NCBI GenBank assembly: GCA_030374765.1
Contig: JARGXX010000105.1
Coordinates: forward strand, 868,001-932,000
Direction: 5' to 3'
Source of the DNA: Agarophyton chilense
Taxonomy: Eukaryota > Rhodophyta > Florideophyceae > Gracilariales > Gracilariaceae
DNA length: 64,000 bases
The first letter of the stretch is position 1. Every line of letters begins with the position of its first letter. Under the pieces are notes generated by a model. It was not told the DNA's origin and ran no database searches. It saw only the letters and a list, made by a program, of their open reading frames with translations. Positions 7,175 to 25,170 of the stretch are shown piece after piece. The translations under genes and the position numbers were made by a program.

Positions 7175-7199
7175 TGTTCTCAGAATGCTAGATAAGTGT
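7175..7199 (+). repeat. Left terminal inverted repeat of the 18-kb transposon
   Basis: It begins TGTTCTCAGAATGCTAG and matches the inward-read sequence from 25,170 at about 21 of 25 positions. GCTAGTT-like motifs follow at 7209 and 7258, and GCAGTTTAA at about 7332. Confidence 0.7.
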
Positions 7200-7422
7200 G
7201 CTAGATAGCTAGTTTTGTAAATAAAAAGCCAAAAAATATATGAATTTTTCAGATTGCGCTAGTTCGGCAGCTGAAAAAAAAAAATTTGGAAATAAGAACT
7301 CCATGCATCTTAGTGTTTTGACCACTTAATGCAGTTTAATCTGCATTTGCAGTTTACTGATCACTTTTGACCGCTCTAGGTGGAGATCCATACCAAGGCA
7401 GTCGTCTGTACCTTTTACCTCA

Positions 7423-8074
7423 TTACTGGCCCTTTTGCTTACTAGGCTCCAGCGTTCCACCGGGAGGGTATTTGAGGTTGTAGAAGTCCATCACCTCATT
7501 CTCAACCTCGTCCACCTCCCCACTGCTCAAGTTCCTCACACCCGGCTGCCCCACCACACACACATTCCCACTCTTCTTCTCCACATCCTTACCAACCCTC
7601 CTCTTCTTCAGCCGACTCTCTCCAACTCCTCCCCCTTTCCATTCCTCTCTCCCCTTCTTCATCCCAGCCGGCTCCCCGCGTCTCCCTGGCGTCACCGGCA
7701 ACCCTTTCGCTCTCCCCCTCTCCTCTCCCACCTCCTTCAACACCTTCAGCGCACCCCAAATCTCCCCCACCCCTTCCATGTGCACTTCCAACACCTTCAC
7801 ACGCCTCTTCAGTTCCTCATTCGCCCTCCACAGCTTCCCCATCTCCAGCCCCATGGGGATCCGCTCGACATCGCCAACGCCCGCGAAAGCTATCGACAAG
7901 AGCCACCGCAAGCGCAAGCGCACTCACCTTAGTGCGGCCAGTAGTACCCGCAGCCTCCCACACAGCACCCCCCCTCGAAAATCCTCTCGCCCACCTCCGG
8001 CCTTTTATTTCCTTTTTTTGACCCGCTTTTCGCACGCGCTCGCCCAATTTCAGTACCCTCGTACACCCCTGCAT
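7423..8074 (-). CDS. Small coiled-coil, Lys/Arg-rich unknown protein, possibly two exons
   Basis: I do not recognise the family. The minus strand is purine-rich here and codes for a charged, partly coiled-coil protein (KLWRANEELKRRVKVLEVH) with a basic stretch (SRLKKRRVGKD). The long frame has no usable upstream ATG, but AAG|GTGAGT at 7928/7927 and an acceptor-like AG at 7844-7843 suggest an 85-nt intron. Joining 8074-7928 to 7842-7423 keeps the frame and gives about 188 residues starting MQGCTRVLK. Without the intron the first in-frame ATG is at 7854. It is the leftmost gene of the 18-kb transposon and is divergent from the reductase-like gene at 8466. Confidence 0.4.
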
Positions 8075-8465
8075 CTACGCTCTGGATGCCCTTCACCCCA
8101 CTCATTGCTCACTCACACACTCCCATCCATATTCCTATACCTTCTATCATGTTCAGCGCTCCCTCACTACTCCCAATTTCATAGCCTTCTCATTTATAAT
8201 AAATCACACTCATTCGTAACACAAACCGCCGATTACTCATAAGCCCTCTTTCCCGTTATGACTTCCATAACAGCACACACTCCTACACTTTTAACACAAT
8301 AAACACCATTCAATATCATAAATCTAACCTCCTTCCCAAAAACCCCTAACACTTATTCCTCCACAACCGTACTCCTTCTCTATTTAATCACATCTCCACA
8401 CTCGCCACCCCCACCACTTCTTCAATCCCAAGCACACCGCACTCCAAACGCCTTTTGCAATCAAC

Positions 8466-9290
8466 ATGACCGACTCTCTCACTGCCATCCCTTGCACCTC
8501 CGACCCAGCCGTTATTGTCGGCAGAGGCCGAATCGGCACTTTGCTTCGCAACAACGGCACCCCACAAGATGCTTTTCTCTCAACTCAAGAATTCATCTCC
8601 GCGCAATACATCCCCGACGGCCCCATTTTCTTCTGCGGCATAAATCATTCACTCGAAGACGTCATTCAATTCTGCCCTTCCTCCCGCAGAGAGGATCTGG
8701 TCTTCCTTCAGAACGGAAACATTCTCCCTCTTCTTTCAACCTATGGGCTCCAAAACTGCACCAAAGCCGTTCTCTTCCTCGCCGTCCCCTCCCTTAACGC
8801 ACCCCCCGAGGACAGTGTCACCCTCCTCAGTCCCCATGGTCTCACAACTGCCACCGGCAAATGGGCTCCCGCACTCGCCAATCGCCTCAGTACCGCAGGC
8901 CTCACTTGTCATGTCGTCGACCAGCCCTCCTTCTCTAAAGCTTACTACGAAAAACTCGTATGGATATCAGCTTTTAATCTCGTCGGCTCCTCTTATGGCT
9001 TTATCACAATGCACGAAGTTGCAGTACAACACCGCACAGTCGTTTCAACCATAATGAAAGAGCTCCTCGCCATCGTCACATCCGAAACAGGAATCGCCTA
9101 CAATACAACAGAAACACTCCAAAAACTTCTGGCCCACGGAAAAACACTTACACAGTTCCCCACCTCGTTCTCAGACTTTGAGTTCCGGAACGTCTACTTC
9201 TACAACGTTTCTAACGCCCAAAAATCCATTGGAAACCGTGACCCCGCCCCTTTCCATACGAACTTCTTGAACGTCCTCCTCAATGGGTAG
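8466..9290 (+). CDS. Ketopantoate reductase-like NAD(P)-binding protein
   Basis: This 274-residue protein starts with a Rossmann beta-alpha-beta (AVIVGRGRIG, residues 15-24). It has a middle segment typical of the ApbA/PanE fold. Its helical C-terminal half has a candidate catalytic Lys163 (YYEKLVWISAFN) and Asn171, matching the K...N pattern of ketopantoate reductases. The real enzyme reduces 2-dehydropantoate to pantoate with NADPH in coenzyme A synthesis. The nucleotide loop here is atypical (G-R-G-R-I-G instead of G-x-G-x-x-G/A), so substrate and even activity are open. The frame is intact, starts at the first ATG after a TATTTAA-like stretch near 8380, and sits as cargo in the transposon. 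Confidence 0.55.
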   Translation: MTDSLTAIPCTSDPAVIVGRGRIGTLLRNNGTPQDAFLSTQEFISAQYIPDGPIFFCGINHSLEDVIQFCPSSRREDLVFLQNGNILPLLSTYGLQNCTKAVLFLAVPSLNAPPEDSVTLLSPHGLTTATGKWAPALANRLSTAGLTCHVVDQPSFSKAYYEKLVWISAFNLVGSSYGFITMHEVAVQHRTVVSTIMKELLAIVTSETGIAYNTTETLQKLLAHGKTLTQFPTSFSDFEFRNVYFYNVSNAQKSIGNRDPAPFHTNFLNVLLNG

Positions 9291-9705
9291 TACTTCATTC
9301 ATATACCCCTTCCAATAAAAACAAGTCCTCCTTTCTAAAGCATATGTCCATCTCCTTCGCTGCCTCGATAAAGACTGCTATCCGCACGACACCACGTCAG
9401 AATATTTGAAACGATATTGAGAATTGCTTCGTACATCACAAATCATCACTACAACCACTCTTCATAAATCTTCCAACTTTGCAATTAAGTCTGTACCCAA
9501 TAACCGCTCCTACAGCCTATCAAAGGTTTTCATTCATAACAATTATTCATACTCCGCGACAGAGATACGGCAACAACCTAACAACTACTTTGATCACTAG
9601 ATATATATATCCACCGATGACCACCCTACTTCATTGCGCTCAACATACTGTATCCAGTCCCTCACAAATACCTTTCTACACAACACTCTCCTTTCCTTCT
9701 CAAGC

Positions 9706-10050
9706 ATGCAGCGCTACGAAGCACGTGTTTCCCTACCCCCTGGTTCTTCTGTCCAATGCTCAGCAGCTTTGGATATTCTTCCACAACGAACGGTTATCAC
9801 CATCGACAAAGTCCTTCAAATCAAACTTCCAACCACCCAGAATGTGGTCGAAGTCAGAGGGTTCCAGAATCATATCACCAACGAGCTCATGGACGAGATT
9901 CGTGACATTTGTACGACCACCAGGAGGCTCCCCACTCGCAACTCCCTACAGCTGCAAGATACTCTGAAACAACTGTTCAAAGAGCGGTATCATATCGTTA
10001 CCTATGTGCAGCGTACAAGGAAGACTAGCAAACCGGAACGCCTTTACTAA
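9706..10050 (+). CDS. Small unknown protein (114 residues)
   Basis: No family is recognised. The predicted soluble protein starts MQRYEARVSLPPGS. It has a Val/Ile-rich first half and a basic helical second half (TLKQLFKERYHI). The start is chosen at the ATG that begins protein-like sequence; the frame is open further upstream, but that stretch is low in complexity. Its stop overlaps a TACTAA sequence that resembles an intron branch site, followed within 15 bases by CAG and TTAG. Its 3' end could therefore be intronic to the next gene. It lies in tandem between the reductase-like and membrane-protein genes. Confidence 0.4.
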   Translation: MQRYEARVSLPPGSSVQCSAALDILPQRTVITIDKVLQIKLPTTQNVVEVRGFQNHITNELMDEIRDICTTTRRLPTRNSLQLQDTLKQLFKERYHIVTYVQRTRKTSKPERLY

Positions 10051-10063
10051 GGTGTTCAGTTAG

Positions 10064-10891
10064 CAAACACTCTTCACATCGACCTTAACGTTCACAATCA
10101 CACTAACTACACTCTTCGGAGTTATAGACCCAGCTCTGCAATATACGCTTCCATTCAGATTCAACTCTCTCCTTCGGTTCATTCTCATAACGCTATTGAG
10201 ATGTTCTATCCAAAGCCTGCTACACATTCTCATAATCGAAGGAGGCGTACAATGTATAAACGCGTTATACGGGTCTCTACAAACTACGCCGTTCAATCCA
10301 AACCAGCGATATACCTTGAAGAAACGAGCCTTTCTGGAATTCGGGGCTCTACTCCATACTCTACTCATCCCCCTCAACGCCATACTTTTCCTCGTTCACC
10401 GCTTCATTCCAGTCAGCGGTACCCTTTCATCAGACGTGAAGACAAATTGTATCGCCTTCTCCACAGGAGGGGCCGCAGTTGGCGCTTTGGCATATCTTCT
10501 CCAGCTTGTTTCTATATCCTTCTTTCCAGAGTCCTATCTTAACACAAAGTTCAAAATGACCCCGGAACCACGGAGAACCTCTTTTATGAACCTCGTGCTT
10601 GGCACCCTCTCCCACTCTTTTCAACAGGCTTTATTCATATCCAGTCCGGCTGTAACCTTCCGACTTCTCGGTATGAGGCTGTCGGCATGCACTTTCGCTG
10701 CACTCTCTTCAACCGCCTTCTCCACCTCTCGCATTGAGGGCCCTGGTGTTCCTATACTGCTTGGTAACACAGTGGATGTAGTAATCTTGATATCTTCGAC
10801 AGTTGTCATTCACTATGAGAAAGTGAAAGCAAGTGCTGCTCTCACGCGTTTCAATCCAGTTGTTCAGGAGTTTCTACTGAAAGACGACTGA
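10064..10891 (+). CDS. Polytopic membrane protein, 5' end unresolved
   Basis: The frame is open from 10,064 to 10,891 and encodes at least five hydrophobic segments. Examples are SLLRFILITLL, FGALLHTLLIPLNAILFLV, GALAYLLQLVSISFF, FISSPAVTFRLLG and VVILISSTVVIHY. The tail is charged (EFLLKDD). There is no ATG in frame until inside the protein, so the start is probably in an upstream exon. TACTAAGG...TTAG immediately before 10,064 looks like a branch site and acceptor. I cannot place the donor. No family is recognised. It is cargo of the 18-kb transposon; its 3' end is convergent with, and about 80 bases from, the end of the ParB/oxygenase gene. Confidence 0.45.
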   Translation, partial: QTLFTSTLTFTITLTTLFGVIDPALQYTLPFRFNSLLRFILITLLRCSIQSLLHILIIEGGVQCINALYGSLQTTPFNPNQRYTLKKRAFLEFGALLHTLLIPLNAILFLVHRFIPVSGTLSSDVKTNCIAFSTGGAAVGALAYLLQLVSISFFPESYLNTKFKMTPEPRRTSFMNLVLGTLSHSFQQALFISSPAVTFRLLGMRLSACTFAALSSTAFSTSRIEGPGVPILLGNTVDVVILISSTVVIHYEKVKASAALTRFNPVVQEFLLKDD

Positions 10892-10972
10892 TCACTATTA
10901 CAAGAAAAGGGGACTACTCCACATATTACCTCAAATTGTACTCTTTATTGTTCAATAGGTAACAGATACTAT

Positions 10973-13900
10973 CTAGTCGTCGTTGTCATCCATTATCATA
11001 CAGCCGTCTTCATAGTCTCCATCTGTGTTAGCGGAGTTGAGACCCATCCCAGGTTCATCATCCTCTTCTTCATACTCCTCTTCCCCACTTTCAACAACTT
11101 CCATTTTATAATCTTCATCCAACTCCTCATTCTCATCTACCTGGACGTCTTCATTCTCACCCTTGTTGGAATCATCCTCTTCGAACTTAGGCCGAAATGC
11201 TGGTTGCCTATGACCTGCGTCCGGTAGCTTGTACCCATCCGGTACCAAGTACATGTGATACCTCATGCAAACTTCCTTAACGAATGCATCTTCGTATCCA
11301 GCTCCAGCATGAAACACATCTCCTCTTCCAATAAAAATGAGGTACGGCGGAATCCTGAACTTCCTCACTACCATCGTCCGAGACAGCCGCTTCAAGCTCC
11401 TGTCCTCGGGCACGTACATGTTATGTGACCTCTCACAAACCCAAAGCATAAACGAACTCGCTCCCGACGCCATCATGAAGAACCCTGGAACCTCTCCGAC
11501 GTTCTTCTCGGCATCGATCAGTCCTCGAAAGTCCGTATGTAACACCTGCCTTGGACAGCCCTCCGCCGTACACAGCACTCGCCCCCCTGTTTCAGGGGCA
11601 TACATCCTCTTCTTCCCCGACCGGTTGTTGCACAACCGAAGAGCGGCCGCAATCAGTCCAAACCTCGCATCCAACAATGCCCTTTTCCTCACCATTAAAA
11701 CGTTGTTCTCGTCCCCCTCCACAGGACCCACAATCCCCACCTTCGTCGTAATGTACCGCCCAACTCCCTTCATTCTATCTCCAGCGTCTCTCTTCTCACC
11801 AGCGTTGATTATAGGGTCCCATTTCTTTCTATTCCCTTCAATCGTCAAGTCCGGCTGGTTCAAGAAATCCGTCTGGAAGAACTCTAGCAAAGTCCCAGTC
11901 ACATCCCCATCGAAGTTAACCCCCCTGTTCTTCGCCTCATCCGCCATCCCCTCGTCCGTGGCAAACTCTTCCAGCACACAAAATCCTTTCTCCATCAGCT
12001 CACTTCTCTTAGTCGCGAAGTACTCGCGGGCCAAGTCATCCCTCTCCATTGCTGCCATCCATATCGCCTGCTCTTCATTCAAAGGGTGGTCCTTCGTCGG
12101 TAGAATCACCCCAAGAACCGGTTCTTTCGTGGAACCCAGTTCCTTGTGCCTGTTATGAGCAGCACGCCAATAAACCGCATGGTGCACACTTTTCAAGTCT
12201 TCTACCCTCAAGCACTCCGCCCCGTGCTTGTTCCGTAGGTAAATCATCTGCATCCAGAGGCGCTGATGCTTCACTCCATTTTCACCCGCCGGCCACTCGC
12301 TCGGAAGTGCATTCACCAAGTACACCCACGACATACCCGACCCCCCCGCATACGGTCCCGCCCTCTTCAGCCCCTTCGGAACACCCTCCGGATTATTGTC
12401 TTCGAAGCCACGCATTTGCACACCTTCCTCCTCTTCGTCCCCTACAAATGCACCCTGCCCCCCGTCATCATCCAGTTCATCCTCACTCGATGAGAAAACA
12501 TTGAATACATGTTCCTTCAAGAAGCGCTTCAGCTCTTTCCTGCTCATCTTCTTGAACACATCCACCACGTCAGCCGGTATTTGAGCCGCAGATGTGCCCA
12601 CCGTCTTTCTCCTCTTCCTCTTCCGCTTTAAAGGCTGTTCATACTCGCGTTCATCATCACTAATGACCACAGCCTTTCTCTTCCCCTTTCTCTGTCTAGG
12701 TTCCATCACCCTCTCACCCGCAGCATCCAGCCCGCGCTCAGTACCTTTTCTAGTTCGTGTGATGCCTCTGGGAACCACGGTTTCCTGGTGGAGTACAGAC
12801 TCCCCAGCACTAGACGAAGGAACATTCACAGAAGGTGGCACCTCCACCACATCCTTCTCCGCACTTGGGGACGCCAGACTCACTTTCAGACCGCCTTCAA
12901 TCCGCCTTTGTGCGATTTTCATCCTCTTCGACACCAACCCCGGCCACAACCGCTTCGGACCACTGAGCTCCATCTTCGCCGTTTGCATGCAAAGGTACTC
13001 TCTTAAAGACACCTCGTTCTTTCCCATCACAATTGTGCTGTCTAGATCCTTCCCCGCCGTCAGACCCTTCTCCTTTCCCGCCCTTTCGCATAGTTGGAAC
13101 ATTCCTATGGCGCATTGGAAGAACTGCTTTCGCGTCTCCTGGAAACGACCCATATTACCCGTAGAACCCATCCTCAGCCTCACATGTAGCTGCAAGCAAC
13201 GGATTGTGAAACGAAATATTTCGTCTTCGAGTCCTAACAACAAGTCACTCGACACATGCGCAAGCGTTAGCACTGGAACCTCCTTGCATACGTTCTCAAA
13301 GAACTCCAGGAGACCTTCGCTCCTGACGAATTTCAACCCAAGAGTCGCATAGCGATTCAAGTGGCGCAAGCTGTAGATTCCTATAGCTTCGCTCGTCTTC
13401 AGCGCCCCAGCTATCCGTGTCGGAGTAAGGTCAGCCAACTTGGTTCTCTTATCGTCAATCAAGTTGCAAATGAAGGACACTGTCGAATGAACCTTGTCGG
13501 CGAAACTCATCTTCAACACATTTGAACTCATTTCATTGAGTACATTACCAAGACCGAGCACTTCGTTCAGCGATAAAGGCTTCCGGTCCTTGCGTCTCCA
13601 AAGAACGACATCAAGAGACCGCACAATTTCCAACCACTTTCTCCCTTCAGAGGGATCATTCTTCAGATCTCGCAGAACCAAGACGCGGTGATGACCGTCA
13701 ATGAGTATGACAGGCACCACTACCCTCCCATTGTGAACAATTTCACTGAAATCTAATTCCATTCCCCCGACGATGGCAACAGCAATCGACCCTGCCGACG
13801 CAAGCCAGCCAAACGTTTTGCACTTTGCCATCGTCGCCGCCTTGTGTTCCGCATTCACACTTCTGACAGTCTTCTCGGGGATTTGTATGTCATCTATGTC

Positions 13901-14659
13901 CACAATCAAGCGGCACTGGTCATAGTCTGAAACAGAGATCTTCTTTTCCACGAGAGTCCTATCCACTTCCTGCGAAGGAACGGCATCGCCGTCATCGAAC
14001 AACTCCAACTCGGGACCGGTGTGCGAATCCCCGCGTACATTCACCGCTGACCCCACCTCCACAACATCTTCATCAGAATCATCCACTATCGTCACCCTCT
14101 TTTTCGGCTTGACGGGTTACTTCATGGCCGGCGGCACTGTTGTTGGCTGTGCCCTTTTCCCCCTCAAAGGCGTAGCAGACTCCTTCGAGGGGGTCGCGCT
14201 TTTGGGAGTCTCCGGCCGAGGAGGCCCTGGAGTCAGCACAGAGGAGACGCGTGTCATCATCGAGGTATCCCATGCGTATATACCTGCCGACACCATATCC
14301 TTCAGCAACTCCGGCGGCTCCTCTGCTCCCTTGAAGGAGTACGGATACTTGGAGTTGATCCCCTCCTTAATTTCAGTCCTCCAGATGGCCACCAAGTCCT
14401 CTCCCGGCTTCGCAGACTCGCGCAACGAATGGCCATGCATCGCTCTGCAAAGCGCCTTCCCGGCCGCTCCACTGCCCCCAACACCTCTCAACTCCGCAGT
14501 GCCAACCATAGTACCCTTCTTCTTCCCTGTCCCATCCGCCAGGAACAACGCCACCCTATCCCCACCAGCCAGATTGTTTCCCGATGTAGCTTTTCGCGGA
14601 GTGGCGCGTGGAGTACCCCGCGGAGTACCCCTCGCTTTCGCTTTGCCTCGAGTCATCAT
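10973..14659 (-). CDS. ParB/Srx-like domain fused to 2OG-Fe(II) oxygenase-like domain; frame cut by one stop
   Basis: The minus-strand frame from ATG at 14,659 runs to 10,973 with a single TAA at 14,117-14,119. On either side the frame is the same, so one 1229-codon gene was probably cut by a Gln-to-stop change. The first part (about 180 residues) is basic with GTPRGTPRATPRKAT repeats. After the stop come an acidic leader, then a ParB-like domain with the diagnostic LIDGHHRVLVL. Next is an all-helical stretch, then a Lys/Arg nuclear-targeting segment (LKRKRKRRK). The C-terminal double-stranded beta-helix has candidate metal ligands HTD and FHAG and a following Arg (MRYHMYLVP), the H-x-D...H...R pattern of 2-oxoglutarate oxygenases. 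A long acidic tail ends it. Role inferred: DNA- or chromatin-directed oxidation; ParB-fold domains can bind DNA or hydrolyse nucleotides. The first ATG after the stop lies inside the ParB domain, so this copy may be dead unless TAA is read through. Confidence 0.65.
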
Positions 14660-14804
14660 TTGAATCGGATCGTAGTCGGTCGAGGTTGCAAATGGTCGCA
14701 GAGCGCTTTGAGCCTTTTATGGTATACAGACTAAGACGTATTAGATCGAGCTCCTTTGGTGGCGACTATCCGGAACACTCCCGAGAGCAGTTCGTTGCAA
14801 TCAG

Positions 14805-14856
14805 CCTGAACTACGTCCGCTTAGTTTCAACCTGAGCTACGTCCGCTTAGTTTCAA
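14805..14856. repeat. 26-bp tandem repeat, two copies
   Basis: CCTGAACTACGTCCGCTTAG... and CCTGAGCTACGTCCGCTTAG... follow each other without spacing and differ at one base. The unit could be a regulatory site duplicated between the divergent genes. Confidence 0.85.
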
Positions 14857-15197: not shown

Positions 15198-18100
15198 ATG
15201 GCTCCAGAACCCACGAGAACTTCTTCATCGCCTGCGGCAGACACCTTCGAAATGGGTAAACTGTTTGGTACGGGGGATGAAGTTATCAGGGCGTGTCTGG
15301 ATTTGCGTGATCGTTACGCATCAACGAGGCGGGAGGAAGATGAGCCGCGAAAAGTGGGGCACACTGCATTCATCGATTTCGCAATTGCCAATCGCCACAT
15401 CCTACCGGAGACCGCGAAGTTTTTTTATACTCTCCTAGGTCCCGACCACACCAATTACACAGAAGATGAGCTCCGAGTTGTAGGAATGAGGGGCTCGAAC
15501 TGTCAGAATTATTTCTCGGCGAGGTTGCTGGATATAAGGGATGGGGACCCAGATAGGCGCGTGAGGGACTTTTGGAACGCGTACGAGGCGGTGGAGTTCA
15601 AGGGCATCCCGAAGAATGTCACTTTGACAGAGTTCTTCAAAGGTCTGGATACAACCCGAAAGAAGGCGAGCAAAAGCCGGGCTCCATTCGCGACCGACTT
15701 CCCGACAATGTTCCAGAGGTTGCTGTTCCTCATTTGTATTCAGTCGGTCTCTATGGAGAAGAGAAGAGTCTCCCGTAAGCGAAGAAAGCGGGACAGAACC
15801 TACGATACGCCATTTTCGAAGGTGGCGATTTATGACAAACCAGTAGCTCAGCGTGTGGGCTTTGGTGTGCAGCTCGTCAATAACGCGTGGGACAGCTTCG
15901 CCCAGTATTTGGGATTCCCTGGCGTGGAATTCATGGTTTTGCCCTTTATCCATCTACGATATTCTGATATGCAGTTCCAGGCAATCGGAAACAGAAGGGA
16001 TGGGTTCTCTCACAAGGACATGGCCCAACGACTCCTTCCTGGTAGAAACCGTACTTTATTGGAGGAGGATGTCGTCCCATGGGCGTGGAACCTGCCGGAG
16101 TACGTTGACACTCCACTTCGTATGTTGGCCAAAGAGTTTCTCGCTGACCTGCACAAAGTGGTGGTGAATGAGCAGCTTTACTCTATATCAGCTCCGGAAA
16201 GATGGGACGTTCTAAAACCGTTTACATACACTTTGCCTAGAGTGTTTGCGGAGAGATTCGACTGCTTCTCGAACTCTCTTATCTCTACCATCTCGGAATA
16301 CATATCGCCACTAAAGCTGCGAGGGAGTGTGGAGGTGGAAGTGGTGGCTGCGACAAAGGCGGAACCTACTATGGTTATGGAAGAAGACGAGATAGAAGTT
16401 GTACCCCCTGAGAAAGATTCGGAGGCTCCGGCGGTGGAGGGTGGAGAGGGAGTGGAGGGTGGGACCGGGAATGAGGAAGAGAACATGGGTGTTGGTCAGC
16501 ATTCTTCCACAGCTGGACCAAGGTCGGTCGAATCTGAGTCGGTGGATATTCTGCCGCCTCACGACCTTACCTCTCTGGATGATATAATGTCTCTCCAAAA
16601 GTGCGAGTCGGAGATGGATAAGCACTGTCGAATGTACAATTGTACTTTCGAGAACCTGGTGGAGATTGACGAGACATTGCGCAGCAATGGGGTCTCTCCG
16701 ATAGGGAAAGTGCAGTTGGTTCTCACGGACCCGCCGTATAATATACGTGCGAAGAAGAACAGGAAAAACAGCTGGTACGACGTTCTTAACCGGCAAGACA
16801 TGGTGAAGACGGCGAAGCTCATCTCTAAACTTCTGCGTCCGGGAGGGCATTTCGTTATATTCTGCGCGATTGAGCAGGTGAACGAATGGAAAGAAGTGTT
16901 GGGTCGAATTGGTGCAAAGGATGAGAATGGACAGAAGAGCAGGTCGTTTGTCGTGGACAAGGTCCAGCTGCACTTCATTCGCTCTCAAGGCAATCCGATG
17001 CGTAATCCCGGACGTAGTTCGTGCTCCCTGTTTCCCGGAACAGAGTACGCCATTCATGGAGTTCGCAGCGGGTTGTCCTACGCCGAACAACATGGCATGG
17101 TGAACTATGAGAACTTCAGCTATGTACCATCGCGATATCCGGGTTACCATAGCGTGATTGACCAAGTGCCTCCCATGTCGAATGGTGAAACACTTCTATG
17201 GAGAAGGAAGAATGCCAAAGGAGCAGTTACGTATCAGAAAGTGCGGGCGGAACAGAAGTCACGCGCTTTGCTGAAGGAGCTCATCAGCAGGTTTTCTCAG
17301 CCGGGAGACATAGTGGTGGACCTCTTCGCCGGAACATTTTCAACGGCCATGGCATGCATGGAACTGGAAAAGCACCGTCAGTTTCTAGGGTGTGAGCCAG
17401 ATCCGCAGTGCTTTGCTCATGCGAAGCACGCCGCTACAGTGAAATTTGCGTCATGCATGCGGAACAACGAGACGGACATTCATATAACGCAAGATGTTCG
17501 GAACGCTGTGACTCGAGTGACATGCTTGTTTCCGGACGTCGTCATAAAGCGTTCGAAGTCCTGGAAAACACCTACCGGATTTCCCGAGCATCAGATGTTT
17601 CCACCCCATATCGTGGATTTTCTCTCCTCCATGTGGCAGGATAAGAATATATCGGAGATTGGGCGACGGCAGGCGCTGTATGAGTGGCCAAGAAGTTTTC
17701 AAGGAAAGATGTCACTGTTGGATTGGAATGCTATTCTGGCAGTGGAGGCGACAGTATGTGGTTGTCGGATTGCAAAGTCGACGATAAGGCACCCGAATGC
17801 TGGAGTTGGTGTGTACACAACACGCCGGGTGATACAAGGTGAGACTGTTTGTTACTTTTACGGGACTTTGGTGTACCATAATCTTTCAAAGCGGAAGGAA
17901 GTTCATAAGGCATACGGAGGGGGGCTATTGAAAGCGACTGCTGATCGTTTTCGGCAGTACGCGATGGAGATAAGCGTCCGAGGGGAAGTGTTTCACAAGC
18001 TACCAGGAAGAATTAGTGGGGTGTCTCTTATTCCGGTGTGGATTGTCCCTGCTCCATTTTGCTTGGGGGGAACAATTAACGACCCCAAGTATGTGGAAGG

Positions 18101-18329
18101 GGATAGGGACAGGGATGCGGTTGAAGACGGGTTAATGAGACGCCGAACTGCAAATGTTCGGGTCATCAGAACTCCGGGGACGGGGCGGACCCCATTTCAG
18201 TTGAGAGACTATAGATTGCTTTCTGTGCAAGCAATTCGAGATATAGAAATAGGAGAGGAGCTGTTCGCGGATTATGGGACAGAGTATATCTGGAGTATGA
18301 ATAACACGCCAGTCATAGTAATCGATTAA
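15198..18329 (+). CDS. DNA amino-methyltransferase fused to SET domain
   Basis: This is an intact 1043-residue protein. Residues 1-370 form an unknown domain with a basic patch (KRRVSRKRRKR, 188-198). An acidic linker follows to about 450. Residues 500-745 are a beta-class N6-adenine/N4-cytosine methyltransferase: LTDPPY (509-514) is the catalytic motif. LRPGGHFVIF follows, and DLFAGTFSTA (708-717) is the SAM-binding motif placed after it. That order (catalytic, target recognition, SAM) is typical of bacterial beta-class enzymes. Residues 855-1032 are a SET domain: HPNAGVGVYTTRRV, GGTINDPKY with a later NV in place of the usual N-H-S...P-N, and IEIGEELFADYG. Inferred role: writing both a DNA base methyl mark and a histone lysine methyl mark. 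It is cargo of the 18-kb transposon, divergent from the ParB/oxygenase gene. The DPPY form favours adenine-N6 but does not exclude cytosine-N4. Confidence 0.85.
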   Translation: MAPEPTRTSSSPAADTFEMGKLFGTGDEVIRACLDLRDRYASTRREEDEPRKVGHTAFIDFAIANRHILPETAKFFYTLLGPDHTNYTEDELRVVGMRGSNCQNYFSARLLDIRDGDPDRRVRDFWNAYEAVEFKGIPKNVTLTEFFKGLDTTRKKASKSRAPFATDFPTMFQRLLFLICIQSVSMEKRRVSRKRRKRDRTYDTPFSKVAIYDKPVAQRVGFGVQLVNNAWDSFAQYLGFPGVEFMVLPFIHLRYSDMQFQAIGNRRDGFSHKDMAQRLLPGRNRTLLEEDVVPWAWNLPEYVDTPLRMLAKEFLADLHKVVVNEQLYSISAPERWDVLKPFTYTLPRVFAERFDCFSNSLISTISEYISPLKLRGSVEVEVVAATKAEPTMVMEEDEIEVVPPEKDSEAPAVEGGEGVEGGTGNEEENMGVGQHSSTAGPRSVESESVDILPPHDLTSLDDIMSLQKCESEMDKHCRMYNCTFENLVEIDETLRSNGVSPIGKVQLVLTDPPYNIRAKKNRKNSWYDVLNRQDMVKTAKLISKLLRPGGHFVIFCAIEQVNEWKEVLGRIGAKDENGQKSRSFVVDKVQLHFIRSQGNPMRNPGRSSCSLFPGTEYAIHGVRSGLSYAEQHGMVNYENFSYVPSRYPGYHSVIDQVPPMSNGETLLWRRKNAKGAVTYQKVRAEQKSRALLKELISRFSQPGDIVVDLFAGTFSTAMACMELEKHRQFLGCEPDPQCFAHAKHAATVKFASCMRNNETDIHITQDVRNAVTRVTCLFPDVVIKRSKSWKTPTGFPEHQMFPPHIVDFLSSMWQDKNISEIGRRQALYEWPRSFQGKMSLLDWNAILAVEATVCGCRIAKSTIRHPNAGVGVYTTRRVIQGETVCYFYGTLVYHNLSKRKEVHKAYGGGLLKATADRFRQYAMEISVRGEVFHKLPGRISGVSLIPVWIVPAPFCLGGTINDPKYVEGDRDRDAVEDGLMRRRTANVRVIRTPGTGRTPFQLRDYRLLSVQAIRDIEIGEELFADYGTEYIWSMNNTPVIVID

Positions 18330-18653
18330 AAGTGCATCGCTTTTGTTACTTTACTTCATTGTAGTGTACCAGATATTGTGGGCTTTTACTATGTTTGTCG
18401 CTACATATAACGTCAAAGCGTGACGTAGTACATATGCTAAAGGAAAGTCATGTACACCGAAGGAGAATACTTTCCCAATATCTGGTGCGTTCGAGCGCAT
18501 ATTTAAAATATCTGAAAAGTTTGGGGGTTTTCTGAGAACACGAAAAGGGTGGAGGTATATTTTTGGAAGCAGAATGTTTCGAAGCTTCTCTCCCATCCAT
18601 CGCATTGCAACGCGTGGAAGACCATACCACGATCGCTCTCTCTCTCTTCAACC
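18330..18653. other. Intergenic region, no gene seen
   Basis: This is an AT-richer spacer between the methyltransferase-SET gene and the next plus-strand gene. A CT-rich run (about 18,636-18,650) immediately precedes the ATG at 18,654. No repeat or RNA gene is evident. Confidence 0.4.
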
Positions 18654-21330
18654 ATGGCTCCGAAGCGCAAATCGAGAAGCGAGAACACTAGCGGGCGCGG
18701 TACAAAATCACGGCGGCATGGAGGGGATGCGGAGGGCGGAAGGGACAAGGGGCGTAGGCTCCAGGGCGCGAGTGGAGAGAAGGGAGGCGTGCGCCTGAGA
18801 GGTAGATCAAGGCAAGATGGTGGGGAAGGAGAGGCGAGTGGGGGCAAAGGAAAGGCTGTTCGCGCAAAGGAGACGGTGACGGAGGAGAGTGCGGAGCAAA
18901 TCACGTCGCGCAAGGAGTAAATCACGTCGCGTACGGAGCAAATCACGTCGCCTACGGGAGAGATGGTGCGGAGCGGCGATGGAAAACGGGATGGCGTGCG
19001 AAGCAACCGCACGCGTGTACCTAGAAGTGGATTGCGGGGGAGGGCGAGCAGAGCTCCAGGGAGGACAAGGAGAGGGGATGCATCCGAGCGGACTCTAAGT
19101 GCTGTACTCACGTCTTCAGCTGATGTGGAGCCGGTAAATCCATGCTCTGCACCTGAAGGAGGTGAAGAGATTCCGAATGAGAGGACGAAGGGGCGTAAGG
19201 AGGGAGAGAGAATGATCGGAGAACGTGGATCCCGCCTCAGAGGCGTTGAAGAAGCAGGGGCATCGTTTACGGGTATGAGGGAAGAGGACGGTGATGATGA
19301 GATACAGAAAGGGAGAATAGAGAGTAGCCGTGGTGGGGAGGGTAGAATAGGTGGACCCAGTAGTGGTCTAATCGCGGGCGCAAGAGTCGTTCGAGAGAGA
19401 ACAGAAGGAGAGAGTGTTGGAGTTACCGCGGGGGAACAGGCGGAAAGATGGGAGGGGGCGAACTTGGATTACGTGGAAGAAAGGAGAGAGCGTGCAAGGG
19501 AAAGAATGGGGAGTGTTCGAGTTACAGGAAGAAGAGCGATAGACGAAAGGGAAAGCAGAGAAGTGCATGTGAGTGAGAGGGGGGAGAAGGGGGTTGGCTG
19601 GAGGGAGAACACGTGGTTCAGGGGAGGAAGGCGATGGAAGAGCAGCAGTTCTTTCTCATCAGGGAGAAGATGTCGAGCGTTTGCCACCGAGGAGAGGGGT
19701 GGGTTTGGGAGTTGAAGGGTTTGAGGTGAACGCAAGGCGAAGGACGCCGGAAGGTATGCGAGTAAGGAGAAACATTGTATTCACAAGGAATAATGATAAC
19801 GGGGAGAATGCGAATTTAAATGTCGTGGAGAACGCCGTCCGTATAGTGGAAGATGAAGCAAATGATGATGACATAGGTTTGTTGCCGCGGTCGATGCTAA
19901 TTGAGAAGATGAATGTGTTGAAGGGACAAATGGGACGTATGAAGGAAGACAGCTACAGTGTGATGGTGAGTTTGAAAATGACCCAAACGGAGCTGGATCG
20001 GGCGAGGGAGGAAATGAAGCAGCAGAATGTGCTGATTGAGAGTTTGAGGGAGGCGTTGAAAGGTAGAATCGCTGGGGAAGGGAGGGGGGAGGGAGGCGTG
20101 ACGCGGCGACGAAAGTATGACATTGGAGTGCAGGAATGCTTTTATGGATTTGCACGTCGTGTGTATGATAGGATTCTTCATTATGCAAAACTGGAGGCAT
20201 CGGAACTTTGCTTCGACACCGAGAATGTGGGTCGAAGCTGGAAGAATAGAAGTGAGGCGGTTGGGGAGAGTAGGGAGGAAAGTATGTTTGTGGTGGGAGA
20301 GAAGGAAATGGTTCCGAGATGTCCAATTGAGGTTGCATATGAGATGAGACCGTATACGCCGTCGACAGAGGGCGGGAGCCATTTGTTGTTGAAGCACGTG
20401 GTAGAGACTGAGTTAATGGGAGAGAAATGGGAGTCGATAAGGGAAGCGGGGAGGAGAGAGGAGTGCGTGGAAAATGTAAGTGCGGATAGGTGCTTGAGAC
20501 AGAGGATGAAGCAGACATTGAGCGATGTGGTTGGGGTGCGGAAGCGAGCAGCGCGTGATAAGCTGTTTTCCATGCTTGGATATGATTTGATCGCGAAACG
20601 AGCTAAGGTGACTGAAGGGACGGAGCTTTGGGCGGAGTTGAAGAAGCAGATTGAGGAGGCGCAGGAGAAGTTGATGGGGTCGGGGGAGGATGGGAGAGGT
20701 AAGCTGTGTGCGTGGAGAACGAGTGCGATTGAAGATATTACTTATTCTGGATCGAAGGTGTCTGAGAACTTGGAGGACTTTGGTGAGGCAGATATGTATT
20801 TTCGAAATCAGGTGTCGTTGAAAGTGTTGGAGGAGTTTATGGGCTACGCGGTAGAGAGTCACAGAAATGGAGAAAGGCAGTATGTGGATGGGACGGTGAT
20901 GCATCTTGCGCGACTTGATGCATGGATTGGATGTGTGGTGACCACGATGGATAGAGACGTTGGGCGGGGAGGCCAAAGGCAACTTTTGTTCTCGACGCTG
21001 TTTGGGAGGTTTCTGCCACTGGCTGTTGAGGACATATTGAGGGTTGCCTGGAACATGGTGAAGGATGAGTATGCTGAGGAGTTTGAGAATGATGGATTCT
21101 GTGGAGGGAATCGTAGAGATGTGAGTGGGAATAAGGAGAGAATCGCGACGGTTGGGCTATGGATACCGTCGAGAGAGAAAATCTATCTGGCGATAAGGGA
21201 GGAGTTTTTCATGGAGAATCTCACGAGAAGACTTGGAGCGGTGTTAGATTGCTATATAGCGTCATGTGGACCAGAAGAACCACGGTTCAAGCGCTTAGCG
21301 TTGGGGAGTAGGCAAGGAGTGGGAGAGTGA
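18654..21330 (+). pseudogene. Basic/coiled-coil unknown protein of the transposon, broken by a stop and a frame change
   Basis: No family is recognised. ATG at 18,654 starts a strongly basic, Gly/Arg-rich N-terminus (MAPKRKSRSEN). TAA at 18,918-18,920 interrupts it, but the same frame continues to 19,715. From about 19,640 the sense passes to another frame that runs to 21,330. Its C-terminal part looks like folded protein: a coiled coil (MLIEKMNVLKGQMGRMKED), then helical segments with conserved-looking aromatics (YDIGVQECFYGFARRVYDR, LFGRFLPLAVEDILRVAWN). The frame change may be an intron or an indel. The stop falls in the middle copy of a 21-bp repeat whose other two copies have CAA, so Gln-to-stop is nearly certain. 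It could be the element's accessory transposition protein or another cargo gene. Confidence 0.5.
18894..18956 (+). repeat. 21-bp tandem repeat, three copies, in coding sequence
   Basis: The unit reads GAGCAAATCACGTCGCGCAA plus one base, encoding E-Q-I-T-S-R-x. The middle copy has TAA instead of CAA, which gives direct evidence of the mutation that closes the frame. Confidence 0.85.
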
Positions 21331-21439
21331 TAAGGTACGGGGGGATAAGGGGGTAAGGAGGTGGAGCAAGATGGGGGTCGGCTATGGAAGAAAAGCAGCG
21401 GTGACTATTTTATTGGATCATGTGCCTTGGGAGGTATTA

Positions 21440-24400
21440 TTATGGGTGCCACCCAGTGGTGGTGTTGGAGAAGTAGGGCTTGGCAGTTGGGTCTCGGTAG
21501 AATCTGTTGAGGTAAAATCGATGGAAGCGCCAGTGCAATCGAGGGGTGAAGGGGGGTGCGGGGTATTTTTGGCGAAGTACATGAACGGGGCCGAGAATGG
21601 AAGAGGATGGTACGAGGCCGAACCAGGGGGAGACGTTGTCGGAGTTGGAAGTGTTTGAGATAGGAAGGGGGTGGGCGGTGTGGTTTTGTTCGTCGTCTGT
21701 TGCCCATCGGAGGCAGATGCAATTGAGAGAGACATCGACTTGATCCTGGGGTGGAACGAGTTCGAGGAACTGAACGAAGGCGAACTCGTTATGAGTGGAA
21801 GGGGAAGAAGGGGTGGTGAAGCGAAGAAGAGAGTTGAGCTTGCAGACCCAGGCGGTGGGAGTGGGGTTGGAGAAGCTGGAACCGGCAACGAGGATGTGGG
21901 AGAACTTTGGGGTTTTAGAGGGACCGAAGGAGGGAGCAGCGAAGATACGTTGAATGAGTGGGAGAGGGGGATCTTTGACGGCGAGCTCGTTTCGATCGGC
22001 GATGTAGTCGTCTAGGGTTGGGGTGAAGCCGCCGACGACGTATGCGGAATTGACGAATGTGAGACGGGTTTGGCGGAGAGTGGGGGAGTCCTGGTTGAGA
22101 GCTAGTGTTTCGAGTGTGAGTGTGACGAAGGAGGGGAGTGCGAGGGTTCCAATCTGTGAGATGATGGCGATAGTGTCTGGGGAGAAGAGGTCCTGAAGGG
22201 AAGAGATTGTTGAGTGGGGGTTTGCTCGAAGGAATTTGTGAGCGGTGATGAGATCGGAAAAGGAGGTGTGCTTGCCATCACGGACGAAACCTGGTTTGCG
22301 GGCTTGGAAGGGAGGAGGAGGGGCATGGGAGGATGAGGTGACGGAAGGATCAGCGGAGAGAGAAATCCAATTGTTGACGGCATCGGAGCGTTCGATGGCA
22401 CGGATGGTTTCGTTGTGCGCGGTGGGTCTGCGCTTGGAGGTTCGGGAGTAATGTGCTTTGAAGAGGGTATGGGCTTGTTCGAAGATGCCTGCATCGTTGA
22501 AGTGGAGACCCCCAAAGCGTCGAATGTCGTCTACGATGTGATCGAGGAGGTGGAATTTGAGGGTGCCAAGGTTGGAGGTATGGTATGGACCGAGAACATC
22601 GACAGCTCTGTGCTTGAAGGAATGGATTTGGGAGGCGAGTTTGGCAAGACGAGAAGTGGTCCATTCGGGGACGGAGTTGTAGCACATGGAGGTGAGGAGG
22701 AGGTCTGTGTACTTGGAGAAGACGGTTGTGATGGGAGCGGAATTGGCTTCGTCACAGCAGCGGTCGAAGAAGGCGCCGATGAAGGGGAAGACCATGTCGA
22801 GGGCGCGGTAGTCTTTTGCTTCTAGCATGCCGCGGACGCCGTCAGTTGTGAAGAAGCCGTTGAGGGACTGCCCGCTTTCGGAAGTAGAGAAGTCGATGTG
22901 GAGGCCGGTAGCTGGGGAATGATTTTCGATGGCGGTGAGGATGAAGTTGGAGTGCTTGAGGATGGAGGTGCGGACGGAGTGGAAGGAACGGCGGGAGTTT
23001 GTGGAGCTGATGGTGGTGAAGAGGTGTTCTGATCTGAGACGTTCGATGGCGGCGAGCTTGATGAGTTTGGAAACGCCGAGGTGGAAGTTGTGGAGGGGTT
23101 CGAAGGGGAAGATGTTGTATGGGGTGAGGAGGGGGGTGATGTTGAAAAGGGGGTAAGACTCGAAGAGGGAGGGGTATTTTGCGAGGGAGAGGGAGTGGAG
23201 TGCTTGGAGAGCTTGTTCCTTGAAGTTGCGCGAGACTCTTGGCTTGCGGGCGAGGAGAGCTGCTTCGGAGTCCTTGAGGAGGGAGAAGTGTTTGTTGCGG
23301 GCTGCAAGGGTGAGGGGAAGAGATCGAGGGGGATGGGCGTGAGAGTGTTGGTGGAGTTGTGAGCGAGGGACAGAGCATCTGTGGCAGGGGTGCTGGGGGC
23401 GGGTGCCGTGGGAGATGGCGAGAATATCCTTTGCCTCGGGAATGTCTGCGCAGTAGCTGGCGATGATGGGGTGGCATTGACGAAGAACGCCGTCTGCGTC
23501 GCGGAAGGGGAAACCGGGGAGGGCGGAAGAGAAGAGAGGTTGAAGGAGGGAGGAGATGGTCTGCTGTATGAGTTCCATTTTTGTTTGGCGGGGGATGGAG
23601 GAGGAATGAGTGATGATATCTGCATCTGGAGAAGGAGTGATTGGGGTGAAGGAGGTGGGAAGATAGCCGAGGAGTGTGAGATTGTCGGAGATGCATTTGC
23701 GGCGAAAGGAGTCGGAGAAGTTGAGAAGGGTGATGTGGAGGGGGTAGGAGGTGATGGAAGAAGATTTGAGAGAGGTAGAGGACTTGTCGGAGTAGATTTG
23801 GACGAGGCCGATGAAGGAGTCGATACCGGTGGAGTGAGGGAGATGCCAGACGATGTTATCTTTTGTGGACTGCATGATGGCGGTCTTGAGTGCGGGGACG
23901 ACTTTTGAGCCGAGGGTGGCTGCCATGGGGTGTGCGAAGGCGGGGGAGCCGGAGGCGGATGTTTGGGAGATGGGGTGGAAAAGGTGTTCTTGAAGTGTGC
24001 GAGGGCGAGCTGTTGTTTGAGGACATGGATTGCGTCTTTCTGGAAGAGGGTTGCGGAGAAGCGTTTGTGGGGATCGAAGATGGTGGAGGGGGCGAAACCA
24101 ATGGACCTGATTCTCTGGTGGAAGAGGTCTGCCTGGAGCTCGAGGCATTGCTTTGCGGAGGAGACTGAGTTCTGGAATGTTGATTCGGAGAAGTGGGGAT
24201 CATTAAGGAGAGTGATGAGTTCGTCAGCCTTTCGTTGTCCAAGCTTGGAGGCGATGGAGGAGATGTAGAGGACCATTTTCTCCAGGTGGGGGTTTTCGAG
24301 GGGGGGAGTGGAAGGAGGGAGGGGGGAGAGAGCGAGAGAGGAGGGGGAACCGAGAGGGGCAGTGGCGACGTGGATGGCGTCCTGGGTGTGGAGGGAGAGA

Positions 24401-24661
24401 GAGGGCTGGTATTGGAGGTAGGAGTCATGGTGTGCAAGAGGGACGTTGTCGGAAAGGCGATGTGAGTGAGGAGGATGAGGGGGGAGTTTGTGAGGTGGAA
24501 TTGTGGCGTTTTGTGCGGGGGGGGAAGTTGGGTTCATTTCCGCCAGGGGAGACGAAGCGCTTGTTGGCGGAGAGGCGATGAGGGCACCTTCTCTGGTGCC
24601 GCTGGAGGGCGGGGATTTCTCTGGCGAAGAAGGAGCAACCGTTGAAGCAGCAGGAAGGCAT
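21440..24661 (-). pseudogene. Plavaka-family transposase with N-terminal zinc finger, frameshifted
   Basis: Cut-and-paste transposase of the 18-kb element. From ATG at 24,661 comes a C2H2-type finger (CCFNGCSF...LQRHQRRCPH). A second frame carries LGQRKADELITLLNDPHF and LFHQRIRSIGF. From about 23,985 a third frame carries the long core to 21,440. The core shows the Plavaka signature blocks in order: SYPLHITLLNFSDSFRRKC then LLGYLP; SYCADIPEAKDI then CHRCSVP (metal-binding Cys pair); FEPLHNFHLGVSKLI; and KFHLLDHIVDDIRRFGGLHF followed by a His/Arg-rich region. Two frame changes, near 24,440 and 23,985, may be indels (a TTTT run sits at the second) or unrecognised introns. The C-terminal part (about 300 residues) has no recognised domain. 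Family assignment rests on motif order, not on a search. Confidence 0.75.
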
Positions 24662-25145
24662 GGTGGGTGGAGGAGAGGTAGTGGGAAAGAAGTTGGTAGG
24701 GGGCGTAGACGGAGAGAGAGTATGGCGCACACAGGGCACGTGAAAGGGGAGGGCGGTCGAGAATAATATAGAATGCAAGGCACATGAGGTCTGCCAGGTC
24801 TGGCTGCGATTCTATTGCGATTGATATGGATGGTACTAAATGTTCAATTTCTATTTTGAGGTCCATTTTGGGACCGGTTGTTTGTACTAATCTGTCAATC
24901 TAGAGCGCACAATGATTGAATCTGCTCCTGCACCACTTCTCTACTTTTACCTTTAAACTGCGGCGACAGAAAGATTCACGCTAGTTTTACCTCCATCAAA
25001 ACTATAAAAACTGCAGATATGTGCTAGTTTTCCTTCCTATACAAACTAGCACTAATGAACGAATGAAAATATTTTCGGAAATTAACACCTCCAAATTTGG
25101 ATAAATTCACGGGTTTTTCGGTCATTTCAATTCGTCCTTTTTTGA
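24662..25145. other. Right subterminal region of the transposon
   Basis: This is non-coding. It contains several GCTAGTT-type motifs in both orientations (about 24,982, 25,021, 25,046) and TTAAACTGC at 24,953, the inverse of the GCAGTTTAA near the left end. These look like subterminal transposase-binding repeats. The transposase promoter should lie in the leftmost part. Confidence 0.45.
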
Positions 25146-25170
25146 CCACTGAACTAGCATTCCGAGAACA
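25146..25170 (-). repeat. Right terminal inverted repeat of the 18-kb transposon
   Basis: Read inward on the minus strand it starts TGTTCTCGGAATGCTAGTTC. Differences from the left end are few. CTG at 25,171-25,173 follows it, matching 7172-7174. Confidence 0.7.

Follow-up and report, generated by a model that had tools for sequence, protein, structure and literature searches.

The large mobile element found in the window (the whole stretch of 64,000 nucleotides that was analysed) is almost certainly a Plavaka-type transposon carrying genes for predicted DNA and histone modification. Comparison among its copies shows that what moves is a unit of about 18.6 kb that contains a methyltransferase-SET (MT-SET) fusion, oxygenase-like and reductase-like proteins, a membrane protein and proteins without assigned function. 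By analogy with known systems, we infer a role of this cargo in chromatin control: an element with a predicted DNA methylase-SET protein and a candidate oxygenase may set marks on its own chromatin. If so, it would provide a natural test of a selfish element that writes DNA and histone marks together, with a candidate eraser alongside, and bacterial or phage-type DNA methylation enzymes would have entered eukaryotic chromatin via a transposon. Copies with the cargo and copies from which it has been deleted occur side by side in one genome (we examined 11 long copies, including that of the window, and five short ones), so a single organism would allow the cargo's influence on chromatin, expression and mobility to be compared.

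Boundaries, insertion site and copies

The original prediction placed an 18-kb element at positions 7175-25170, with inverted terminal repeats and a 3-bp duplication enclosing a Plavaka-like transposase and cargo. One transposon copy does lie there, its limits now being 7169-25176 (18,008 bp), and the repeats were borne out as 23-bp sequences, CGTCTGTGTTCTCAGAATGCTAG on the left and, in reverse complement, CGTCAGTGTTCTCGGAATGCTAG on the right, with 21 of 23 positions matching. The duplication proved to be 2 bp (TG/TG) instead of 3. Other copies have the same ends and duplications, as anticipated: the 2-bp flanks match in every long copy read at both ends (10 copies, at nine independent sites), and in four of the five short copies, L032 being the mismatch. 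Among the 10 other fetched long copies, the left end was present in 10 and the right end in nine; in the eleventh long copy (C12b), no right end was found within the fetched stretch. An empty-site comparison, also proposed at the outset, revealed that the window copy is precisely inserted in a Gypsy-type retrotransposon, with the joined flanks aligning gap-free over 385 bp (92%) to a second retrotransposon copy, L034, which represents a paralogous empty site.

Both ends are abundant in the genome, with at least 40 matches to the left end (the best 40 of 105 candidates scored) and at least 40 to the right (the best 40 of 134). Of the other long copies fetched, nine (eight of them spanning both ends, at 18.5-18.9 kb) are approximately 96-98.6% identical in their main aligned blocks, which indicates that the cargo travels with the ends. 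A comparison of 11 long copies, with that of the window among them, found cargo DNA retained in 10. The idea that two host loci or an assembly join had been mistaken for an element is refuted by the empty site and by the number of copies whose ends are nearly identical and whose duplications match, and we give it practically no weight. At the 44 places with MT-SET among the matches listed, the reductase gene lies at the expected distance upstream in 28 and the transposase downstream in 27, with at least one of these neighbours in 37 and both in 18; these counts used 42 of 58 reductase and 50 of 51 transposase matches, with a second family and the additional fragments of split genes set aside. 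Wherever they were seen, the cargo genes sit in element copies and are not fixed, syntenic host genes without the repeats. Nor do the repeats bound merely a much smaller unit: five smaller units share its ends, but two of them are clearly mosaics of the large element and three are stripped of most cargo. These shorter copies appear to have arisen from the large element by internal deletion or rearrangement, and a shared-deletion form was found at three sites.

Judged against copy C86, the window copy is decayed: one in-frame stop splits its oxygenase gene into ORFs 14117-14659 and 10973-14095, and three frameshifts interrupt its transposase, whose longest open piece is 21440-24148. No CpG or RIP-like decay was found (CG-to-TG 0.069, CC-to-TC 0.064; CpG observed/expected 0.86), and nothing therefore points to cytosine methylation as the threat that the element needs to evade.

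Table 1 Features of the transposon copy, in window positions
Feature	Position	Strand	Basis or remark
Whole transposon	7169..25176	.	18,008 bp; ends common to other long copies and empty site
Target duplication, left copy (TG)	7167..7168	.	2 bp
Target duplication, right copy (TG)	25177..25178	.	2 bp
Left terminal inverted repeat	7169..7191	+	21/23 identical to right repeat
Right terminal inverted repeat	25154..25176	-	21/23 identical to left repeat
Small ORF adjoining left end, coiled-coil-like (by eye)	7423..7923	-	ORF list
Ketopantoate-reductase-like protein, 274 aa	8466..9290	+	Sub-cut-off profile matches; 58 genome matches
Small membrane protein, about 231-248 aa	10196..10891	+	Three hydrophobic segments; open in 9/10 copies
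ParB-like motif / 2OG-Fe(II)-oxygenase-like protein, 1228 aa in intact copies	10973..14659	-	Motifs
Inverted repeat with 36-bp arms, TGTCGGCCGACA cores (up to 1 mismatch)	14950..15024	.	Between divergent oxygenase and MT-SET genes
DNA methyltransferase (beta class, DPPYN) with C-terminal SET domain, 1043 aa	15198..18329	+	Pfam, motifs, family profile
Basic low-complexity ORF (U350 of copy C86), frameshifted here	18654..19715	+	Open in 1/10 copies; gene model uncertain
U524, 524-aa protein without assigned function	19756..21330	+	Open in 6/10 copies
Plavaka transposase, 1087 aa in intact copies	21397..24660	-	PF18759; outer limits estimated from copy C86

Proteins encoded by the element

The proposed fusion of a DNA methyltransferase to a SET domain is confirmed within a single 1043-aa frame by matches to N6_N4_Mtase (PF01555; 3.4e-18) and SET (PF00856; 8e-5, with 23.4 bits barely above the cut-off of 22.4); 13 of 44 places (the best 44 of 232 candidates) are stop-free within the match. 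DPPYN at residue 511 precedes FAGT at 710, the beta-class arrangement, and the window protein contains ND and GEELFADY, which we take to be the SET core motifs. Nineteen relatives from outside could be aligned, at 28-49% identity over 47-97% of the length. In the resulting family of 20, the window's protein included, Pfam matched N6_N4_Mtase in all members and SET in 16 at E ≤ 0.1, leaving four with no SET match at that threshold. A search with the family profile returned the adenine-specific enzymes DpnA, CcrM and MboIIA first, RsrI also, then the SET enzymes KMT2C and KMT5A; an N4-cytosine methyltransferase was matched weakly (0.0054). The methyltransferase is thus not a cytosine-5 enzyme but of the bacterial/phage amino-methyltransferase type with the adenine-type DPPYN, to which SPPY is the contrasting (4mC) motif (PMC8885841).

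These matches bear on two alternatives to marks that keep the element mobilisable. The first, which we consider improbable, is that methylated adenines at the ends or in subterminal DNA act as a switch for the binding or timing of the transposase, with SET and oxygenase as modulators. Dam methylation controls IS10 and Tn5 transposition in a comparable way, and the adenine-type motif and closest PDB relatives are as such a switch would predict. DIRS retrotransposons likewise carry Dam-like methylases (PMC5890265), but a SET domain would be unnecessary. Somewhat less probable again is heterochromatin seeking or self-limitation, in which SET and DNA methylation would build silent chromatin, restraining the element or letting its high copy number be tolerated. 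Bdelloid N4CMT with SETDB1, a proposed silencing loop of the same enzyme classes (PMC8885841), and the location of the window copy inside a retrotransposon are in line with this; however, the weak SET matches are headed by KMT2C and KMT5A, EZH2, a silencing enzyme, comes in at only 0.13, the family profile search lists no H3K9 enzyme, and the oxygenase is left unexplained.

The suggested ParB-oxygenase fusion, a divergent protein, is a reading from motifs, with no matching Pfam family. An H853xD855...H929...R945 signature is invariant in all six aligned family members, and we read HxD...H with the downstream R as the ligand pattern of 2OG-Fe(II) dioxygenases, which makes this protein a motif-based candidate for such an enzyme. 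The gene is open in only three of 10 copies and has five relatives elsewhere, of which only P0026 matches Pfam, in a protease domain; the best Pfam match of the oxygenase itself is DUF6887 at 0.2, and NCBIfam and PHROGs gave none. Against the PhyH profile it scored 21.9, compared with 10.8-16.5 in 12 shuffles (Prob 0.9%), with only 20 columns aligned near the N-terminal side. Alignment to ParB by hhalign, including the DGxHR motif, gave E 0.0078, Prob 5% and a score of 24.5 versus 10.8-22.1 in 12 shuffles; in Pfam, ParB_N (PF02195) had no match in the window protein (1040-aa piece) or the five relatives. Pfam does not support a TET/JBP identity either, with no Tet_JBP match in the window protein or its five relatives; a Tet_JBP search of the genome found none, and control genomes gave none either. 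The relatives P0002 (MT-SET) and P0022 (oxygenase) are each listed with four contigs, the longest 20,528, and this identity suggests that the two may be linked elsewhere too.

The Plavaka-like transposase is well supported (PF18759; 1.4e-22, 80.8 bits versus a cut-off of 26.3) in a multi-copy element with its own ends, and the expected membrane protein does have hydrophobic segments. A ketopantoate-reductase-like gene is carried by the element as proposed, but its family profiles fall below cut-off (ApbA_C 0.038, 14.8 bits versus 22.7; PRK06249 8e-4, 18.7 versus 360). In short copy L031, the position of the small ORF adjoining the left end is occupied by a longer ORF of 290 aa. By eye, the transposase N-terminus is Cys/His-rich.

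Relation to known elements

The original prediction cited DNA-modifying cargo on fungal transposons as a precedent, and TET/JBP genes are indeed found on Plavaka (PlavakaB) and KDZ elements (PMC12730594). These share with our element a Plavaka-type transposase, the occurrence of 2-bp duplications and a DNA-mark oxygenase, proposed there as anti-silencing cargo; they differ in that the element here, of about 18.6 kb with about eight genes, adds the MT-SET fusion, and Pfam does not place its oxygenase in Tet_JBP. The element ends read CGTCT..TGACG, and the exact PlavakaA (TGT..ACA) or PlavakaB (CATCA..TGATG) termini of fungi are not present there, the PlavakaB end CATCA.. being one base apart from the right end CGTCA.. 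(PMC12730594). It had also been claimed that no described element has this gene set; the set was not found in the available text of the papers compared, but there are precedents (PMC12730594, PMC6431247, PMC11244446).

In the red alga Chondrus crispus, EnSpm (CACTA) families of 16-20 kb with 4-5 ORFs (Kojima 2013 via PMC6431247) are alike in size, multi-gene content, CACTA/Plavaka-related transposase group and possibly host group, and, as compared by size and ORF number, could be the same kind of element. The Plavaka giant repeats of Amoebidium appalachense are a precedent for giant Plavaka elements; their recombinase genes match only distant lineages including red algae, and the available description of their cargo gives tandem intron-poor genes with many tyrosine recombinases, MT-SET not among them (PMC11244446). 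Bdelloid N4CMT likewise joins, in a eukaryote, a beta-class amino-methyltransferase of bacterial/phage type to a chromatin domain, but is a host-resident silencer with SPPY (4mC) and a chromodomain reader, whereas ours is transposon-borne, with DPPYN and a writer-type SET (PMC8885841). Elements carrying DNMT or Dam also encode their own DNA methyltransferase, but are retrotransposons with cytosine or Dam-type enzymes, no SET being described in the available sections (PMC5890265).

The nearest non-eukaryotic relative found for the methyltransferase domain is in phage-like ParB-MTase proteins (viral contig L036; PHROG 67), where both parts form one protein, whereas here the ParB-like motif is on the oxygenase gene and the methyltransferase is fused to SET. 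HarbingerS transposons (cited in PMC12730594), as far as their available description goes, also bring a SET domain onto a DNA transposon, but belong to another transposase superfamily. We know of no DNA methyltransferase fusion in them.

Possible role of the cargo

In the original prediction, the cargo could let the element control its own chromatin state or target preference. The explanation we put forward, whose chances we judge to be about even, is a cargo transposon of about 18.6 kb that moves by cut and paste, as would be expected from its transposase group, and whose dual-mark writer and candidate eraser sustain mobilisable chromatin. The MT-SET protein would mark the element's own copies in two ways at once, with N6-methyladenine in the DNA and lysine methylation on adjoining histones, and the divergently transcribed oxygenase-like protein may remove or convert methyl marks, on DNA or histones. 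Jointly, they would hold the element in expressible, mobilisable chromatin despite host silencing, resembling the anti-silencing role proposed for TET/JBP genes on fungal transposons (PMC12730594 section 4.2), but with writers added to a possible eraser. Going by that analogy, we place an anti-silencing role of the cargo somewhat below even.

Against such a role, the same ends are borne by cargo-less short copies, four of five with duplications, and the cargo is thus dispensable for being carried. The near-neutral pN/pS among copies, the few open oxygenase genes, the missing CpG or RIP-like decay, the want of a relevant family match for the oxygenase, the borderline SET score and the weak N4-cytosine match weigh on the same side. 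The cargo-less copies also fit an explanation that we think unlikely, in which captured genes are passengers that ride along or help the host and have no role in the element's life cycle. Further consistent with it are a pN/pS of 0.61-0.84 among copies, near neutral after insertion, with many genes broken, and the existence of giant transposons with odd cargo (PMC6431247). However, cargo DNA persists in all long copies compared except one, MT-SET is conserved in 19 relatives and the oxygenase domain in five, where the pair may be linked too, and cargo that differs between elements would be expected of passengers.

A bolder form of the chromatin explanation, possible but tentative, is a self-contained two-layer programme, in which one polypeptide writes a DNA-base and a histone mark on copies of the element itself, the divergently transcribed oxygenase edits the mark, the variable inverted-repeat array between the two genes could be the binding or nucleation site, and the module would be an ancient one, common to mobile elements across distant eukaryotes. 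The TGTCGGCCGACA cores number two in the window copy and 9-15 in the nine other long copies without nested inserts, and a related 21-mer occurs at 661 sites genome-wide.

Element ends and unit of movement

The analysis confirmed a Plavaka-type transposon that is present in many copies, holds several genes and has a striking cargo predicted to modify chromatin. Searching the genome (79.8 Mb in 135 contigs, eukaryotic judging by its contents) gave at least 40 matches each for the left end (the best 40 of 105 candidates) and the right end (the best 40 of 134 candidates), and the left end is common to all 11 long copies compared, that of the window included. In each of the ten long copies with both ends read, the dinucleotides that flank the inverted repeats on either side match (TG, AG, AT, TA, TT, CA, TA, AA, TA and TA); no right end was seen in the fetched stretch of C12b. 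C2 and C12c have their flanks in common, so the ten copies stand for nine independent insertion sites. Matching 2-bp flanks were also seen in four of five short copies, the exception being L032, in which the right flank differs. Thus, the target duplication is 2 bp rather than the 3 bp of the original prediction, and the table gives the limits of the window's element. Furthermore, the window's flanks joined with one TG match a second copy of the retrotransposon, in locus L034, in an ungapped alignment of 385 bp (92%), providing the empty-site comparison that had been proposed. This match is a paralogous empty site, not an allelic one. The recurrent ends, matching duplications and empty site led us to reject both a reading of the cargo as host genes and one of the element as an assembly artefact.

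Coordinates of the element and associated features
Feature	Location	Coordinates	Strand	Remarks
Plavaka-type element	window	7169-25176		2-bp target duplication
Polyprotein ORFs	window	3773-6934 and 25196-26372	minus	either side of the element
Inverted repeat with TGTCGGCCGACA cores	window	14950-15024		between two divergent genes; arms 36 bp, 89% complementary
Hypervariable TGTCGGCCGACA array	C86 element	7782-8586	both orientations	between two divergent genes
Duplicated or allelic locus with element, L027/L028	C2	40-60 kb		flanks like those of L025/L026 on both sides
Duplicated or allelic locus with element, L025/L026	C12	654-674 kb		flanks like those of L027/L028 on both sides
Long copy with nested insertion, L011/L012	C3	203-223 kb		
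Stretch common to L031 and L032	L031 element	687-1147		460 bp; without counterpart in C86
Second reductase-like family	L029	4911-9713		
Second reductase-like family	L030	4150-5016		

Aligned to the long copy C79, nine copies (C117, C70, C12a, C2, C92, C86, C12c, C12b and the window's) are ~96-98.6% alike in their main blocks over nearly all of the 18-19 kb. The exception is a repeat array at about 7.9-8.6 kb, which varies between copies, and C12b is without the last ~265 bases of the element. The cargo travels together with the element ends, as had been predicted. We also examined the neighbors of the gene for the 1043-aa DNA methyltransferase-SET fusion (MT-SET). This took in 42 of the 58 matches to the reductase-like gene and 50 of the 51 to the transposase; a diverged second reductase-like family was left out and, for split genes, so was the second fragment. 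Among the matches listed, 18 of 44 MT-SET places have a reductase-like gene upstream as well as a transposase downstream, each at the distance expected; at least one of the two is present at 37 places and neither at 7.

A smaller true unit, bounded by the same ends, is the alternative on which the short copies bear. Five such copies, of 4.5-8.1 kb, have ends as in the long copies. Two of them, L032 and L035, are mosaics that combine blocks lying apart in the long form. In the other three (L031, L033 and L034) most of the cargo is missing, and there are stretches that match nothing in the long copy C86. A smaller unit is thus unsupported. One deletion junction is common to L033, L034 and C3, at three different sites, indicating that the deleted form has moved as such. 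C3 still has the ends along with a portion of the transposase gene, and we rejected it as a copy with different cargo since it contains a nested Gypsy-type retrotransposon; palindromic repeats are also nested there. By eye, a Gypsy-type retrotransposon also encloses the window's element. A 460-bp stretch common to L031 and L032 but absent from C86, together with a leftmost ORF of 290 aa in L031, hints at a second subfamily.

Gene intactness and decay

We scored ten copies, C3 being left out, against gene models from C86, in which all eight genes are open, so that the counts lean towards C86. Free of frameshifts and stops were the leftmost small ORF in six copies (one at 88% coverage), the reductase-like gene in seven, the membrane protein gene in nine, the oxygenase-like gene in three, U524 (an ORF of unknown function) in six and the transposase in four. 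A second such ORF, U350, is open in one; it differs from C86 in nine copies, which makes the model doubtful. MT-SET is open in nine, a count biased by the choice of copies, since eight of the ten other than the window's (C117, C92, C70, C12a, C12b, C12c, C86 and C2) were picked from the MT-SET match list, mostly from its top. Among the best 44 of 232 candidate MT-SET places, the match is stop-free at 13. In the window's copy, a single in-frame stop interrupts the oxygenase-like gene and the transposase gene carries three frameshifts, so this copy is probably non-autonomous.

Among the copies, pN/pS is 0.61-0.84 for all genes, which reflects mostly decay after insertion. pS is 0.006 for MT-SET versus 0.011-0.037 for the other genes, and we do not claim extra conservation from this because most long copies were chosen from the top of the MT-SET match list. 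Rates of C-to-T change in the ten copies depend on the following base (CG 0.069, CC 0.064, CT 0.054 and CA 0.042) with less than twofold spread, and CpG observed/expected is 0.86. No signature of RIP or of strong CpG methylation was seen in this mutation spectrum, making it less likely that the oxygenase-like protein simply removes 5-methylcytosine.

Predicted chromatin-modifying cargo

The predicted DNA methyltransferase-SET fusion was confirmed by Pfam matches to N6_N4_Mtase (3.4e-18) and SET (8e-5) within the single 1043-aa frame. Searching 5.8 billion proteins gave 21 relatives, of which seven have both domains according to precomputed Pfam annotation. The first 19 have 28-49% identity over 47-97% of the query and were aligned with the window's protein; P0020 and P0021, which match a small part only, were left out. 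The methyltransferase matches in all 20 aligned sequences and SET in 16 (E<=0.1). In searches with the family profile, the adenine-specific enzymes DpnA, CcrM and MboIIA came top, with RsrI slightly lower; the profile also matches an N4-cytosine enzyme (0.0054) and the SET enzymes KMT2C and KMT5A (0.004-0.01). The motif order, DPPYN then FAGTF, is that of the beta class, and in relative P0016 YPPY replaces DPPY. As DPPY is described as the usual N6A motif and SPPY as the usual N4C motif (PMC8885841), 6mA is the better guess for the mark made by the predicted methyltransferase. The nearest non-eukaryotic relative found, at one locus from the viral-contig scans, is a phage-like ParB-methyltransferase protein (PHROG 67; viral contig L036), matched in 744 phage records. 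A prokaryote genome scan gave three weak methyltransferase matches (22-24%), and 41 PADLOC models match MT-SET, the best 25 of which are nearly all methyltransferase models.

For the oxygenase-like protein, the whole-length query found no relatives in the protein search; residues 590-960 as query found five, at 31-51% identity. H853, D855, H929 and R945 are invariant in all six aligned sequences, an arrangement that corresponds to the ligands of 2OG-Fe(II) oxygenases. No relevant match was found in Pfam, NCBIfam, PHROG or the PDB, including a PDB profile search with the family. Comparison with a PhyH profile built from seven sequences gave a score of 21.9 versus 10.8-16.5 in 12 shuffles, but with a Prob of 0.9%. 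With a ParB profile built from ten sequences, the match was colinear with the DGxHR motif and scored 24.5 versus 10.8-22.1 in 12 shuffles, with a Prob of 5%. Both labels are thus provisional. A TET/JBP identity is unsupported, with no domain match in the window protein, its five relatives or the genome, in a scan that gave none in control genomes either. Relatives P0002 of MT-SET and P0022 of the oxygenase-like protein have equal contig entries (both 4 contigs, the longest 20,528), which suggests that the pair occurs together in another organism. P0022 also has a weak PADLOC match to SduA (0.0073). Another oxygenase-domain relative, P0026, also matches Peptidase_C48 (Ulp1), a domain often seen on transposons, suggesting other mobile-element contexts for the oxygenase domain.

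The single ingredients of this element are known. TET/JBP genes are carried by fungal transposons, on Plavaka as well as the KDZ elements that had been invoked as precedent, and an anti-silencing role was proposed for them without experimental validation (PMC12730594). Genes for DNA methyltransferases are also found on retrotransposons, DIRS elements among them (PMC5890265). Plavaka giant repeats of Amoebidium reach 50 kb, and the tyrosine-recombinase genes in these repeats match only distant lineages, red algae and dinoflagellates among others (PMC11244446). En/Spm elements of 16-20 kb with 4-5 ORFs in Chondrus crispus, as told in a review (PMC6431247), may be of the same kind as this element. 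The combination, a fused DNA/histone writer with this oxygenase family on a DNA transposon, was not found in the literature covered. Nor did that literature show a methyltransferase-SET fusion on any Plavaka element or on any element of red algae; Repbase (1181 Chondrus families) lay outside this search and may hold such an element. A chromatin role would be the likeliest reading of the cargo, one that we hold tentatively.

Repeat array and second reductase-like family

The TGTCGGCCGACA cores lie in both orientations. With at most one mismatch allowed, the window's copy has 2 of them, nine further long copies have 9-15 each, C3 has 26, L033 has 9 and L034 has 14, and none were found in L031, L032 or L035. 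A 21-bp version (at most two mismatches) has 661 sites genome-wide, inside or outside the element, versus 0 for the reversed control. We speculate that the array could be a binding site.

The second reductase-like family has eight genome matches (38-45%) and was seen in two fetched loci, with further places on contigs C32, C76, C63, C25 and C95. Most of its places are close to contig ends, and it would be a subtelomeric repeat rather than a piece of the element. In L029, a RecQ-like helicase ORF, identified by eye, adjoins the gene of this family.
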